Below are positions 13,484 through 17,278 of a DNA stretch of 17,305 nt, piece after piece. Position 1 is the stretch's first letter. Each line of letters starts with the position of its first letter. The translations under genes were made by a program, and so were the position numbers. The stretch lies in contig JAISXC010000249.1 in the NCBI GenBank assembly GCA_031270875.1, positions 1-17,305 of the forward strand. The letters run 5' to 3'. The notes beneath the pieces are model-generated. The model saw only the letters and a list, made by a program, of their open reading frames with translations, ran no database searches and was not told where the DNA came from. Origin of the DNA: Desulfovibrio sp. (GTDB lineage: Bacteria; Desulfobacterota; Desulfovibrionia; Desulfovibrionales; Desulfovibrionaceae).

Positions 13484-13918
13484 ATGAAAGAGTACATTGA
13501 AAATTTAGAGCTTTCTAATGTAACAAAGAAAAATATAGATGGTAAAAGCAGGCAATCTATTATAAGAAAATGTGCTGGAATTGAAGAAAAGTTCATGGAA
13601 GAGTATGGAGAAGATTTTGGTCGTGGCGGATGTGACTATTATGCTTCTACGAAAAAAGACATACATGGAACTATATCTTTAGTTGTAAAAGCAAAAAAAT
13701 ATAGCATTAATGATGATAAATATATTGGAGAACTCGGAGAAATTGAAGAAGATTCATTGCCGATTATTCCGGGAATGGATATTTTTTCATATATCTTAAA
13801 TAAGCCTGCATCATTGCAGTTATCTCATAAGCCAGAATTCTTTGAAACAGTTGATGAAAAAGGCAAACAAATTGTGAATGTTAAATTTGAAGCTACATTT
13901 AAATGGTTCGAAAAATAA
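13484..13918 (+). CDS. Unknown protein, paralogue of the C-terminal domain of the gene at 14758
   Basis: A 144-residue protein beginning MKEYIENLELSNVTKKNIDG. I do not recognise the family. Its whole length aligns with residues about 84-225 of the protein encoded at 14758-15534: shared blocks are LSNVTKKNI, SRQ.II.KCA.IEE, VVKAKK, KYIGELGEIE, MDIFSY.LN and PVFFET.D.KGKQI.NV. The gene is AT-rich, starts two bases after the exonuclease-BRCT stop with GGGGA as SD, and is probably co-translated with it. The link to a nuclease gene suggests a partner in the same accessory function, but that is only inferred. Confidence 0.75.
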   Translation: MKEYIENLELSNVTKKNIDGKSRQSIIRKCAGIEEKFMEEYGEDFGRGGCDYYASTKKDIHGTISLVVKAKKYSINDDKYIGELGEIEEDSLPIIPGMDIFSYILNKPASLQLSHKPEFFETVDEKGKQIVNVKFEATFKWFEK

Positions 13919-13936: not shown

Positions 13937-14015
13937 TTGCCGGGTGTGCCAGACATGTCCAAGCGCAAGCCAAAGGCTGGCAGCGGTTCCTGTAGCCGTT
14001 ACGAACACCCGGCAA
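13937..14015 (+). ncRNA. C4-like structured RNA element, copy A (orphan)
   Basis: TTGCCGGGTGT (13937-13947) and ACACCCGGCAA (14005-14015) form a perfect 11-bp closing stem. Inside, GCCAG/CTGGC encloses a loop with the CGCAAG core, and CGG/CCG closes a loop TTCCTGTAG, which contains the anti-SD TTCCT. The layout is the same as copies B and C downstream. After the stem come AATCTTCAT, shared with copy B, and then at once the 3' end of brnA on the other strand. No gene with a matching ribosome-binding site follows and I see no promoter before it, so this copy looks like an orphan or remnant. Confidence 0.5.
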
Positions 14016-14018
14016 TCT

Positions 14019-14231
14019 TCATCGCTCCCAAATCAGTACCGGCTTTCTTCCCTTTGCGGCGCAATCCGCCAAATAGGCGTTAATCAATGTCTGATACGGC
14101 ATATTCGCTTCTTCAGAAAGCCCCTTGAAATAATCTACGGTTGCCTTGTCAAGACGCATGGTGACAGTTATTTTTTTCGGCCTGACATACGGGTTCTTGA
14201 TGCCTTCTGAAAAATCATATTCTTCGCGCAC
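14019..14231 (-). CDS. brnA: BrnA-family antitoxin
   Basis: A 70-residue protein whose core KKITVTMRLDKATVDYFKGL and PYQTLINAYLADCA fits the ribbon-helix-helix BrnA antitoxins, which bind their toxin and their own promoter. It starts with GTG at 14231, seven bases after AAGGA, and three bases past the toxin stop, the usual toxin-first order of brnTA. Its stop is only a few bases from the folded element at 13937-14015 on the opposite strand, so the two transcripts converge. Confidence 0.85.
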   Translation of the reverse strand: MREEYDFSEGIKNPYVRPKKITVTMRLDKATVDYFKGLSEEANMPYQTLINAYLADCAAKGRKPVLIWER

Positions 14232-14233
14232 GA

Positions 14234-14515
14234 CTATTTCCTTCTTTCATAGGTTGCTGATTCGGTCTTGGTGGCTTTCCGGGCTGATATGATTCTGATT
14301 TGTTCGTCGCTCTCCCGATAACAATGGCAGACCACCAGCAGATGAAGAACAGAACTCAAGCCTAGTAGCAAGAATCTGTCTTCATCGTCTGAATGGTCAG
14401 GGTCGTATATTCTCAGTGCGTTGCAATCCATGAAAACCGTTTGCGCCTCTTCAAAGGCGACTCCGTGCTTCTGCTGGTTGTCTGCCGCTTTTTCTTTGTC
14501 CCAGGTAAAAATCAT
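14234..14515 (-). CDS. brnT: BrnT-family ribonuclease toxin
   Basis: A 93-residue protein starting MIFTWDKEKAADNQQKHGV and ending with RIISARKATKTESATYERRK, the signature of BrnT toxins, RelE-fold ribonucleases that stop translation. The KHGV block and the terminal R..SAR.AT...E..YE block are the conserved active-site regions. I chose the ATG at 14515 because GAGGG lies five bases upstream and the length fits the family; a frame extension to 14647 crosses the promoter and is not used. Together with brnA it forms a two-gene toxin-antitoxin operon. Confidence 0.88.
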   Translation of the reverse strand: MIFTWDKEKAADNQQKHGVAFEEAQTVFMDCNALRIYDPDHSDDEDRFLLLGLSSVLHLLVVCHCYRESDEQIRIISARKATKTESATYERRK

Positions 14516-14655: not shown

Positions 14656-14745
14656 CCCGCGTGCAGGCGGGAGAGAGGGCAAAAGCTCTCGCCTTGCATC
14701 GCTATGGGGCTTGCGGTTGTGACCTTTTGTGTGTGCCCACAAAAG
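14656..14745 (+). promoter_or_regulatory. Structured leader before the zinc-ribbon-like gene
   Basis: Three hairpins can form before the start at 14758: CCCGC/GCGGG (14656-14660, 14667-14671), GAGAG/CTCTC (14671-14677 region with 14686-14690), and a perfect CTTTTGTG/CACAAAAG (14724-14731, 14738-14745) just 12 bases before the ATG. The last would hold part of the poor SD (GAGAAAG). It does not have the closing stem of the C4-like elements, so it is a different leader. Confidence 0.4.
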
Positions 14746-14757
14746 AGAAAGACATTT

Positions 14758-15534
14758 ATGATAAACAAAATATTATTATCTATATTCAAGAATTTTAACA
14801 TCGATAAATGCGCGATATGTGGATGCCATATTACAACAACGCCTGATAATACAAGAAAAGAAAAAATCAAAGCGGAAAAAGAATACATTGAAATTTGTAA
14901 AAAAGAGGGTATTGAAATTTATAGTTATAAAATTTGTGAAAATTGCCTTTGTAAAAAGATAAAAATTTTTGAAGATGAAAAATATGATAGTTATCTAAAT
15001 ATGAAGGAAAGAACATACCTGGAGGAACTACAATTATCGAACGTGACAAAGAAAAACATTAGCGGAACGAGCAGGCAGAATATTATTAAAAAATGTGCAA
15101 AAATTGAAGAATCATTTAATGAAGAATACAGCGATTTTGTTAAACAGCATTTTAGAACAGGTTGCTATTACTATATTTCTGTAGAAAATGACAGAAATGG
15201 CATTGTAACAATTGTCGTCAAGGCTAAAAAAGATGATGAATATGGGAAATATATAGGTGAACTTGGCGAGATAGAACATGATGAAATAAATGTCATTTAT
15301 GGAATTGATATTTTTTCATACATGTTAAATAATCCCAAATCTATAGAATTGTATCATCCTGTTTTTTTTGAGACAAATGATAAAAAGGGGAAGCAAATTA
15401 TTAACGTCTGTTTTGACGCGACCGTTGAGTATCCACTAAGAATATCTAATTACATATTGCGTTCAGATTTCAGAATGGAGCGCTTTGGTTTTTATTATGA
15501 TATCCTATTGAAAAAAAATCTTGACCCATCCTAG
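14758..15534 (+). CDS. Unknown protein: Cys-rich N-terminus plus domain shared with the gene at 13484
   Basis: A 258-residue protein starting MINKILLSIFKNFNIDKCAI. CAICGCH near residue 18 and CENCLC about 48 residues later supply two Cys pairs that probably bind zinc. From about residue 84 (YLEELQLSNVTKKNISG) to 225 it matches the 144-residue protein at 13484-13918, and a further tail of roughly 33 residues follows. I know no family name for the shared domain. I chose the ATG at 14758; an ATG at 14704 would add 18 residues but has no SD and lies in the hairpin leader. The gene is strongly AT-rich compared with the tail genes, which points to separate acquisition. Confidence 0.72.
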   Translation: MINKILLSIFKNFNIDKCAICGCHITTTPDNTRKEKIKAEKEYIEICKKEGIEIYSYKICENCLCKKIKIFEDEKYDSYLNMKERTYLEELQLSNVTKKNISGTSRQNIIKKCAKIEESFNEEYSDFVKQHFRTGCYYYISVENDRNGIVTIVVKAKKDDEYGKYIGELGEIEHDEINVIYGIDIFSYMLNNPKSIELYHPVFFETNDKKGKQIINVCFDATVEYPLRISNYILRSDFRMERFGFYYDILLKKNLDPS

Positions 15535-15644: not shown

Positions 15645-15722
15645 TTGCCGGGCGTGGGCGAAATACAATACCCGCAAGGGAAAATAGGCCGGAGTTCCTA
15701 CGCTCTTTTCAGCGCCCGGCAA
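15645..15722 (+). ncRNA. C4-like structured RNA element, copy B
   Basis: TTGCCGGGCG (15645-15654) and CGCCCGGCAA (15713-15722) form a perfect 10-bp closing stem. The interior has CCGCAAGGGAA (15672-15682), identical to copy C, and a hairpin GAG/CTC whose loop TTCCTACG (15695-15702) carries an anti-SD. The gene that follows at 15780 has GGGGAGG as SD, which this loop does not match. CTTTTCAG (15705-15712) is complementary to CTGAAAAG (15753-15760) just before that SD, a possible substitute contact. RNA identity is inferred from structure and repetition only. Confidence 0.6.
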
Positions 15723-15743: not shown

Positions 15744-15779
15744 TGTGTGAACCTGAAAAGTTCCATTGGGGAGGTAGCT

Positions 15780-16055
15780 ATGAATGATAAAATTATCACT
15801 GTGCAGAATATTGATATTGTATTCGACATTGAAGACATCAACATAACTGAGAAGATTAGAGAAGCGTGTAATACCCTTGGTAAATTAACAAGAGAAGCTG
15901 CGAAACGCGGGCTAGTGGTGACTATTGAGATTGATAATAGTATGTTTGCTATAGCAGGACTGATATTAACGCCAATGGTGCTTAGACCAATGCCGGAGGA
16001 GGAAAAATCCAAGTCTGACAAATTGCGGCAACAATTGGGGCTTGCTGATGAATGA
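15780..16055 (+). CDS. Small protein of unknown function downstream of RNA element B
   Basis: A 91-residue protein (MNDKIITVQNIDIVFDIEDI ... IREACNTLGKLTREAAKRGL ... PEEEKSKSDKLRQQLGLADE), probably alpha/beta with a charged C-terminal helix; no family recognised. GGGGAGG lies five bases before the ATG, a very strong SD. An in-frame GTG at 15747 would add 11 residues. It occupies the place that an antirepressor or its leader gene would hold behind a C4-type RNA, so it may be a small regulator, but that is positional inference. Confidence 0.65.
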   Translation: MNDKIITVQNIDIVFDIEDINITEKIREACNTLGKLTREAAKRGLVVTIEIDNSMFAIAGLILTPMVLRPMPEEEKSKSDKLRQQLGLADE

Positions 16056-16095: not shown

Positions 16096-16161
16096 TTTCC
16101 GTTGACTCATCAAGTCTATTGGCAGCACGAGCGCGGCTGTAAAAAATCGCGTTTAACACTG

Positions 16162-16189
16162 CCCGGCCTATTTTGTCGGGTTTCTTTTT
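16162..16189 (+). terminator. Intrinsic terminator ahead of RNA element C
   Basis: CCCGGC (16162-16167) pairs with GTCGGG (16175-16180, one G-U) around a 7-base loop and is followed by TTTCTTTTT. It would stop transcription coming from the upstream gene just before the promoter of copy C, so that the RNA and rha are under their own promoter. Confidence 0.6.
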
Positions 16190-16199
16190 GGGGTATAAT
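16171..16199 (+). promoter_or_regulatory. Promoter for RNA element C and rha
   Basis: TATAAT (16194-16199) in GGGGTATAAT has a poor -35 (TTTTGT, 16171-16176) at 17 bases, which overlaps the terminator loop. Transcripts would start near 16206 and include the folded element and rha. The same core promoter precedes copy B. Confidence 0.6.
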
Positions 16200-16205
16200 A
16201 TCCTC

Positions 16206-16303
16206 AATATTTAAGCCGATAAGATAATTGGCCGGGATGATAGCGCCTAATAACCGCAAGGGAATAAGCGCACTGCTCCAATAGACAGGATTGAGTCCCG
16301 GCC
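16206..16303 (+). ncRNA. C4-type antisense RNA candidate in front of rha, copy C
   Basis: GGCCGGGA (16230-16237) and TCCCGGCC (16296-16303) close the element. Inside are GCGC/GCGC (16243-16246, 16268-16271) around the shared CCGCAAGGGAA core (16254-16264), and CTG/CAG (16273-16275, 16286-16288) closing a loop that displays CTCCAATAG (16276-16284). That loop is the exact reverse complement of CTATTGGAG (16334-16342), which holds the SD of rha; pairing extends to ten Watson-Crick pairs plus one G-U. In phages P1 and P7 the C4 RNA is cut from the leader of the antirepressor mRNA and blocks its translation in this way. Size, position, structure and target agree; membership of the C4 family itself needs a covariance search. 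Confidence 0.72.
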
Positions 16304-16332
16304 TTTCTCGTACCCAAAGGCCCATCATCAAA

Positions 16333-16343
16333 TCTATTGGAGT
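16333..16343 (+). promoter_or_regulatory. rha ribosome-binding site and antisense target
   Basis: TCTATTGGAGT contains the GGAG that sits six bases before the rha ATG and pairs with the loop of element C (16275-16285). Occupation by the RNA would directly hide the ribosome-binding site. Confidence 0.7.
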
Positions 16344-16348
16344 TTCTC

Positions 16349-17278
16349 ATGACCAGCCTTATCCCTTCCCCGTCCGTTTCCCTCGTCAATGGCCGCCCGT
16401 CCGTAACTTCCCAACAAATCGCTGAGCATTTCGGCAAAAGGCACGATTCCATTTTGCGGGATATTCGCCGGGTTATGGCTGAATGCCCGAAAGATTTCAC
16501 TGACCACAATTTTGTGGCGAGTGAATATACAGACGAAACCGGGCGGAAACTTCTCATGTTCCTCATCTACCGCGACGGCTTCATGTTGCTCGTCATGGGC
16601 TACACCGGCAAGAAGGCCCTGCAAATCAAGCTGGCCTATATCGCCGCGTTTAATGCGATGGAGGCCGAGATTGCCGGGCAGAAAGCCCTTCCCGAAACCA
16701 CAACCCCCTCAACCCCTGCCGACCGCAAGCCGCTGCGCTCTCTGGTCAACGCATGGGCCAAAATCGCCAACGTGCATCATTCCGCTCTCTGGCCCCAGGT
16801 CCGCGCCCATTTCCAGCTTGAGCGCATTGACGACCTGCCGGTGGAATGGATTCCGCAGTCCCTTGCCTTCGTGCAGGGCAAGATTGACGAGTTTCAAAGG
16901 TTGCAGCAAAAGGCGTTGCCGGAAGCTCCCCGCCGGATGGAATCAAACGTCGTTCTTGCCAACACGCCGAAGTGGTATCAGATGCAACTGAAGCAACTTT
17001 GGAAAGACCTCAATGACGCGCACGAGTGCAGGCGGCGGCTTCTCGCCATCAACGCGGAAACGCGCAGGGTGACGGGGCCGCTTTACAAGGACGTTATGAA
17101 CAAACTGACCAGGGGCAACCGCTACGAGAACGGCAGCGCCATCGTTTGCCTTGACCGCCCCCTTTCCAACCTGCATTCGTTCGAGTACGAGGCCGGGAAG
17201 ATGATAGAGGACGGCTACTACATGATATTCGACGCCATCGGCCTTGGCCTGCAATACGCCAAGATGCTGGAGTTGTAG
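16349..17278 (+). CDS. rha: Rha-family phage regulatory protein (antirepressor type)
   Basis: A 309-residue protein. Residues about 10-105 are a Rha domain: VNGRPSVTSQQIAEHFGKRH, DSILRDIRRV, FTDHNFVASEYTDETGRKL, MFLIYRDGFMLLVMGYTGKKA, AYIAAFNAME. Residues about 126-185 (LRSLVNAWAKIANVHHSALW ... WIPQSLAFVQGKIDEF) resemble the ORF6C-like C-terminal part of phage antirepressors; the last hundred residues are not recognised. Proteins of this design act against phage repressors or host factors when induced. The ATG at 16349 has GGAG at six bases and is preferred over an in-frame TTG at 16337. Translation is probably controlled by the antisense element just upstream. Its GC content is like the tail genes, unlike the AT-rich genes before it. 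Confidence 0.85.
   Translation: MTSLIPSPSVSLVNGRPSVTSQQIAEHFGKRHDSILRDIRRVMAECPKDFTDHNFVASEYTDETGRKLLMFLIYRDGFMLLVMGYTGKKALQIKLAYIAAFNAMEAEIAGQKALPETTTPSTPADRKPLRSLVNAWAKIANVHHSALWPQVRAHFQLERIDDLPVEWIPQSLAFVQGKIDEFQRLQQKALPEAPRRMESNVVLANTPKWYQMQLKQLWKDLNDAHECRRRLLAINAETRRVTGPLYKDVMNKLTRGNRYENGSAIVCLDRPLSNLHSFEYEAGKMIEDGYYMIFDAIGLGLQYAKMLEL

Follow-up and report, generated by a model that had tools for sequence, protein, structure and literature searches.

Features of the locus

The window, which comprised the whole 17,305-nt stretch of Desulfovibrio sp. DNA analysed, was phage-like. Long frames resembling tail genes were recognised by eye, and ORF6N and Rha regulators were identified by profile searches. 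The product of the rha gene scored 102.2 bits with PF09669 against a cut-off of 29.9 bits, in agreement with the preliminary description, in which a Rha-type partner gene had been named; the named organisms among its best matches were Desulfovibrio or other Desulfovibrionaceae. The features of the window are given in Table 1.

Table 1. Features identified in the window (R2, model built from relatives of the RNA; L249, orthologous rha locus; both are described in the text)
Feature	Position	Strand	Basis and remarks
Third RNA, weak	13938-14015		31.3 bits RF02221, 28.6 bits R2; L244/L247 type by eye
BrnA antitoxin and BrnT toxin genes	14022-14515	-	PF14384, PF04365
Element 1, RF02221 RNA	15646-15722		58.9 bits RF02221 (above cut-off), 84.5 bits R2
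Candidate upstream contact a1, CTCATC	16106-16111	+	Pairs with linker GATTGAG with one bulge; by eye, weak
Upstream second target b1, GTCTATTGG	16114-16122	+	Counterpart of b1 in P1; exactly complementary over 9 nt to the P3 loop region; co-varied and at same place in L249
Possible antiterminator, GGCAG (16121-16125)/CTGCC (16159-16163)	16121-16163	+	By eye; overlaps b1 and terminator stem
Intrinsic terminator-like hairpin (16161-16181) and T run	16161-16189	+	Between b1 and RNA; kept in L249
TATAAT, candidate -10 box for separate transcription of the RNA	16194-16199	+	Sequence; 30 nt 5' of RNA
Putative antisense RNA (element 2)	16230-16303	+	RF02221 and R2 model matches; fold z -3.0
Element 2 P1 stem, GGCCGGGA/TCCCGGCC, 8 bp	16230-16237/16296-16303	+	Fold
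Element 2 P2, with GCAA loop	16243-16271	+	Fold
Element 2 P3 stem	16273-16275/16286-16288	+	Fold
P3 loop, antisense segment b', CTCCAATAGA	16276-16285	+	Exact complement of b2
Element 2 linker	16289-16295	+	Fold
Hairpin GGCCTTT/AAAGGCC between RNA and target	16300-16322	+	Folds
Target b2, TCTATTGGAG, holding Shine-Dalgarno GGAG of rha	16333-16342	+	Exact complement of P3 loop
rha, Rha-type phage regulator, 309 aa	16349-17278	+	PF09669, E 2.4e-29; PHROG Rha-like/transcriptional regulator

Element 2, located ahead of rha, folded into a closed stem with two inner hairpins as had been claimed, and C4 RNA of phage P1 folded alike. Exact reverse complementarity had been reported between CTCCAATAG (16276-16284) and CTATTGGAG (16334-16342); this was correct, and the pairing was found to be longer, 10 nt. 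The GGAG within the target (16339-16342) lies 6 nt ahead of the rha ATG at 16349. A match of at least 10 nt was obtained in 27 of 20,000 dinucleotide shuffles of the target stretch. The complementarity between P3 loop and ribosome-binding site (RBS) of the next gene that characterizes C4 was observed here as an exact 10-nt match which co-varied in relatives.

A terminator-like site was found ahead of the RNA, where a terminator had been expected, and the second target b1 precedes it. At the a1 site, an exact run of at least 6 nt was not found in the upstream-pairing scan. The promoter that the preliminary description had assigned to the RNA was borne out in part: a TATAAT is present, but the site was not listed in a scan for consensus promoters. 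Its place in L249 is occupied by TGCAAT, and TATAAT stands 11-12 nt ahead of the RNAs in element 1 and in L001. Before RF02221 RNAs in general, an own promoter found little support, with a TATAAT-like site at 39 of 169 elements compared with 20 of 169 control stretches.

Two further RNA elements were detected in the window. Element 1 is followed by an uncharacterised 91-aa frame (15780-16055), and matched this next gene by its linker only (CTGAAAAG at 15753-15760); the sequence of its P3 loop, TTCCTACG, has no counterpart at the RBS or in the upstream piece, as would be expected after an exchange of modules. By eye, the loop of element 2 could form 7 bp, one of them G-U, with the RBS of the gene behind element 1. 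The third RNA has no target gene behind it and runs into the end of the minus-strand BrnA/BrnT pair (to 14022), and it therefore looks orphaned. The ORFs at 13484-13918 and 14704-15534, for which no Pfam or PHROG match was obtained, have the stretch LSNVTKKNI.G.SRQ in common, and each is followed by an RNA element.

Assignment of the RNA to a family

A search with the Rfam C4 model (RF01695, cut-off 45 bits), proposed in the preliminary description, was negative, with no hit at E ≤5 across the window or at E ≤10 within 16150-16360; on these two scans, membership of element 2 in Rfam C4 was dropped. Element 2 was matched by RF02221 (sRNA-Xcc1) with 32.3 bits, which is under the 53-bit cut-off of that family (E 0.028 across 4227 families; E 3.4e-4 in a 211-base stretch). 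Model R2 was built from alignment A4, consisting of 16 hand-picked relatives in the same stem register and containing no window sequence, and matched element 2 with 28.4 bits (E 6.7e-5, filters off). A4 was used in place of alignment A3, in which the P1 strands were out of register with 3 pairs only and the genome elements were those containing ATACAA (59 of 87); A3 and its model R1 were left unused.

Of the P2 core of RF02221, AATACAATACCCGNAAGGGGAAT, just CTAATA..ACCGCAAGGGAATAAG is left in element 2; the core is largely retained in L249 and element 1. The P1, P2 and P3 structure of the RF02221 type was found together with co-variation. Judged from its sequence, element 2 belongs by descent with RF02221, many members of which have the complete layout, but it has diverged and falls outside the family by Rfam's threshold.

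Rfam classifies RF02221 as plain sRNA without a clan, and C4 as antisense RNA in clan CL00128. When P1 C4 was scanned with R2, no match was obtained and a sequence-profile link between RF02221 and C4 was not established; the link with C4 therefore rests on layout and pairing. In the available parts of the published reports, sRNA-Xcc1 is an 88-nt RNA in Xanthomonas with ends mapped by RACE, and all seven copies of the family in Xylella were detected as transcribed. These reports place it in integrons, upstream of symE, describe it as controlled by HrpG/HrpX, and give targets that were only predicted.

Co-variation at related rha loci

L249 is an orthologous locus, whose Rha protein is 58% identical to that of the window over its best-matching segment, and its RNA scored above the RF02221 cut-off (56.6 bits). 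The L249 sequence could be aligned to the window over the span between the upstream target and the leader of rha, both included. The loop in L249 is CTCCAGTTA, the Shine-Dalgarno region TAACTGGAG and the upstream site TAACTGG, all three having changed together relative to the window. Other loop/RBS pairs at rha loci were CCAGTAG/CTACTGG (L001), TCCTAGAG/CTCTAGGA (L244 and L247), CCTTAGG/CCTAAGG, present both downstream and upstream (L252, the same as L003), and CTCCGATGG/CCATCGGAG (L251, the same as L046).

Following omission of near-identical loci, 65 of 80 rha loci were scanned with R2 and 20 of 80 with RF02221 and C4. R2 matched at E ≤0.025 in 17 of the 65, including L245, L246 and L251, whose contigs had also contributed sequences to the R2 model; 15 of the 17 matches were within approximately 200 nt ahead of the rha match. 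L003/L252, whose element is visible by eye and by pairing, was missed by R2.

Matching was measured over 95 bases 3' of the RNA. In 17 rha loci (16 and the window), the longest own match averaged 7.59 nt, compared with 5.59 (sd 0.27) in 5000 permutations, the maximum of which was 6.82. The longest run was formed by the loop with the leader in 11 of the 17 and by the linker in 5 (L254, L259, L275, L284, and L311); in L246, it was a chance match within the gene. Eleven downstream proteins from two other element sets were Rha-like in phmmer searches, and their own RBS-region matches were 5 to 9 nt each. The preliminary description had named failure of loop and Shine-Dalgarno to co-vary among related prophages as evidence against its reading; co-variation was observed in the orthologue and across the 17 rha loci.

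Pairing with the next gene in the RF02221 family

Viral contigs were scanned for the P2 core, and at least 120 stretches yielded 123 elements, 99 of them distinct; among the matches listed, 13 of the 99, to which no gene could be assigned, were removed, leaving 86. In these 86 elements, among the matches listed, the P3 loop matched positions -26 to +3 relative to the next gene over 6.41 nt, against 3.89 (sd 0.10) in 1000 permutations with a maximum of 4.20, and the linker matched -45 to -12 over 6.05 nt, against 4.30 (sd 0.11) when permuted. The loop match, again among the matches listed, began between -20 and -12 in 69 of the 86 and was below 5 nt in 13 of the 86, some with a mis-called loop or gene and some apparently orphaned. 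Whole-duplex energies were -19.3 kcal/mol for own and -11.9 kcal/mol for swapped pairs, but the own target ranked first in just 14 of the 86 among the matches listed; because GC-rich partners win, this ranking was given up as blunt, and the longest exact run with permutation was used.

The genome set was obtained blind to targets by an RF02221 search of 397 genomes of Pseudomonadota, the phylum of a Commensalibacter MAG. Matches at E ≤0.001 were found in 52 of the 397 genomes, 36 above the cut-off, and in none of 14 control genomes. Four of the 91 elements, to which no gene could be assigned, were removed; for the other 87, loop plus linker matched over 6.29 nt compared with 4.89 (sd 0.105) in 2000 permutations (maximum 5.23), and the longest run was 5 nt or less in 29 of the 87.

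Structure and order of contacts were examined likewise. A P1 helix of at least 8 bp was formed by 92% of 173 elements and by 24% when swapped. Two-sided changes occurred in 9 of 18 pairs in the 16 hand-picked relatives, with 4.4 in shuffles. An ordered double match downstream, with runs of at least 5 nt, was present in 108 of 173 elements, compared with 7.0% when swapped. Although the P2 core is not involved in pairing with the target, ATACAA occurred in 59 of 87 genome elements, which had not been selected for it; the viral set, unlike the genome set, was selected by the P2 core.

Targeting of the next gene, tested as a rule for all RF02221 RNAs, does not hold in two multi-copy genomes, G233 (9 elements) and G346 (5 elements), comprising L167, L170, L186, L189, L190, L191, L193-L195, L198-L201, and L226. 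Their next-gene match was 5.07 nt versus 5.25, with 1580 of 2000 permutations as high, and there was no excess over swapped partners within 300 bases either (6.50 versus 6.44); the SymE gene L194 and L226 are individual exceptions that do match. These elements matched their own upstream copies (8.0 versus 6.26; none of 2000 permutations as high), and the remaining 73 genome elements gave 6.52 versus 4.89 (none of 2000). These results indicate that some family members retain the upstream partner, and not the next gene, as target, and the RNAs of G233 and G346 may be free-standing antisense RNAs directed at other targets. Small look-alike genes follow several of them (GYL.T...L..L).

Upstream copies of the targets

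Both contacts were repeated upstream in the right order, each with at least 6 nt, in 131 of 170 elements, as compared with 101 of 3383 swapped combinations (3.0%). The double targets were 61 to 130 nt ahead of the RNA in 123 of the 131, and 117 of the 131 upstream modules ended in at least 4 T, a count made without a control. In the loci scanned, Rfam c4-a1b1 (RF03163) and isrK (RF01394) were detected only beside C4 RNAs and not beside RF02221.

Genes located behind the RNAs

Short, cut-off or doubtful gene calls were omitted from the Pfam analysis, which covered 77 viral targets (76 of the 86 genes and that of the window) and 62 of the 87 genome targets; 10 of the 14 G233/G346 genes were thereby omitted, and L167, L170, L194 and L226 were retained. 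Among the matches listed, the 77 viral targets included Bro-N (24), KilA-N (15), P22_AR_N (12), Rha (9), AntA (6) and ORF6N (1), so that up to 67 of the 77 were of the antirepressor type. The genome targets included Rha (8), Bro-N (6), SymE (5), P22_AR_N (2), KilA-N (2) and AntA (1), up to 19 of the 62 being of the antirepressor type, and the rest were mostly family-less. Phage genes directly 3' of DNA resembling the RF02221 consensus were ant of Aaphi23, ant of Rac-SA53, and the KilA-N gene of Acinetobacter phage 4316.

The SymE genes (L154, L174, L194, L202, and L219) had longest leader matches of 6 to 7 nt, situated at the RBS in 4 of the 5; that of L219 was made by the linker. In the available part of a 2025 paper, the cassette with sRNA-Xcc1 upstream of symE is reported to be more widespread than any other in Xanthomonas integrons, and the mechanism is left open there. 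By eye, the loop in L159, L169 and L171 fits the RBS of a short leader frame before the main gene, like the icd/ant coupling of P1. Look-alike small proteins (..T..IRV...GK.R..DA....PYQK.H) are encoded behind the RF02221 RNAs of L157, L166, L173, L180, L181 and L210; the leader match was 7 to 10 nt in five of these and just 4 nt in L157.

Proposed mode of action and alternatives

The structured RNA is very likely an antisense RNA that silences rha in the lysogen, as C4 silences icd/ant in P1. The P3 loop would pair with the Shine-Dalgarno sequence of rha and exclude the ribosome, and the linker 3' of P3 may contribute contacts just upstream. The target copy before the terminator would let the RNA also meet transcripts arriving from further upstream. 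This upstream piece may be mainly a decoy, as is the short IsrK in Gifsy-1; firing of the upstream promoter would then give a terminated transcript that soaks up the antisense RNA, whereby rha would be released. The analysis shows the complementarity, its co-variation in relatives, the fold and the three-part arrangement; from there we infer production and processing of the RNA, action both in cis and in trans, repression of rha, and the role of the upstream copy. The RNA probably keeps rha switched off, so that in the window both the promoter and RNA pairing would determine rha expression. Rha proteins are harmful to phage growth in some hosts, as older phage genetics showed, which would explain so tight a lock.

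Upstream copy and terminator might, tentatively, serve mainly as an attenuator, in which the RNA, by binding b1, blocks the GGCAG/CTGCC antiterminator and transcripts stop before rha. We take this to be a real possibility, if not the favoured one: both in the window and in L249, b1 overlaps a GGCAG that could pair with the CTGCC forming the base of the terminator stem (GGCAG and CTGCCCGGC are both conserved in L249), most upstream modules end in T runs as counted above without a control, and CI/seqA of phage P4 causes termination according to the available part of the report. The antiterminator helix, however, was present in one fold and absent from another, and the short upstream RNA of Gifsy-1, in the portion of that work available, activates its target in trans, which favours a decoy role.

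It is unlikely that the element acts solely as a cis-acting leader of the rha mRNA, with no separate small RNA in trans; in such a leader the loop would pair with the Shine-Dalgarno sequence of its own transcript, or leave it free when P1 is closed. When RNA and leader were folded as a single strand, an 11-bp loop-Shine-Dalgarno helix with the closing stem P1 open was favoured, and the hairpin at 16300-16322 has GGCC in common with the 3' strand of P1, so that the two compete; the sequence therefore cannot separate cis from trans action. In IsrK/anrP, as far as the report was available, the RBS is locked by a cis structure. The relatives, on the other hand, accumulate as an RNA of approximately 88 nt in Xanthomonas and were detected in Xylella in the reports cited above, and C4 of P1 is annotated as a separate RNA. 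An upstream target in 131 of 170 elements also fits an RNA that meets other molecules, chiefly where the next gene is unmatched.

A coincidence of two Shine-Dalgarno-like sequences, with the RNA having another, unrelated target, is very improbable, since variable loop bases tracked variable target bases beyond the swapped controls, upstream too, and three sites changed together in L249, even though CTCC loops suit any GGAG, shuffling yielded the 10-nt match at the frequency given above, and G233/G346 RNAs without a next-gene match indicate that other targets occur in the family.

Returning to silencing of rha by antisense pairing, many RF02221 relatives look set to lock other genes of phages and mobile elements in the same manner. 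At about even chances, in our estimate, RF02221 may be a portable RNA lock of three parts, namely an upstream terminated decoy or attenuator, an antisense RNA of the C4 type, and in most cases the following gene, the RBS of which the RNA would cover. Its targets would be antirepressors in prophages; sRNA-Xcc1 would be a same-direction upstream antitoxin of SymE; the lock would be opened by transcription of the decoy; and copies matching upstream only would be free-standing antisense RNAs. This proposes a testable function for a common RNA family so far unexplained, and connects that family with the C4 immunity RNA of P1. For most RF02221 matches the target would be predictable as the next gene, with the P3 loop as seed; otherwise the upstream copy gives the seed. 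It also suggests that many prophage antirepressors, and SymE on some loci, are held off by one exchangeable RNA device, which escapes protein annotation.

Comparison with known systems

In the available parts of the literature on sRNA-Xcc1/RF02221, on antirepressor antisense RNAs and on Rha with C4 or isrK, a description of RF02221 as C4-like was not found, and earlier notice is possible.

The preliminary description had likened the locus to the immI design of P1 and P7, and in the parts compared the layout agrees with that of P1 C4. In the P1 record, C4 is a separate 77-nt RNA at 48343-48419, with a2 and b2 before icd/ant and with a1 and b1 upstream. As read from the sequence, CTGTCAA in the linker is complementary to a2 (TTGACAG), and TCACTAAC in the P3 loop to b2 (GTTAGTGA), just ahead of icd; by eye, b1 is followed by a hairpin and then TATTTTT. 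Element 2 shares with C4 of P1/P7 the closing stem P1, P2, and a P3 loop with an RBS-matching segment. It is also C4-like in that a further pair of target sites, followed by a terminator-like hairpin, precedes the RNA, and in that the presumed object of silencing is the same-strand gene immediately 3' of it. The linker at C4-type loci matches the stretch just upstream of the RBS; in the window, a contact of 6 bp only, with one bulge, was read by eye. Two differences in layout were noted. C4 has a small P2, whereas that of the RF02221 type is longer with a conserved core. In P1 the promoters are situated ahead of a1b1, but in the window the candidate promoter of the RNA stands 3' of the terminator. 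The 5' end of C4 is made by RNase P, according to the part of the source available. The P1-P2-P3 plan of sRNA-Xcc1 is found in element 2 as well, which lacks part of the P2 core.

True C4 (RF01695) occupied the corresponding position before rha in 5 of the 20 loci scanned (L255, L256, L261, L269, and L286), with isrK above its cut-off upstream in three of the five, an equivalent arrangement made with the other RNA family. Genes for Rha thus stand behind both RNA types.

Two other systems are alike in the portions of their reports available. In the Salmonella prophage Gifsy-1 (IsrK/STnc1160/anrP), a terminated RNA, an RNA of approximately 80 nt and an antirepressor-type gene follow in order, and the upstream and middle RNAs carry complementary sequences; unlike in the window, it is orf45, coupled to anrP, that is targeted. 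The short IsrK transcribed upstream is reported to work in trans and to raise anrP translation 139-fold. The CI RNA of phage P4 is likewise a single antisense RNA with complementary sites, seqA and seqC, upstream and downstream of itself. It is different in causing transcription termination on replication genes, and the likeness was drawn by description only.
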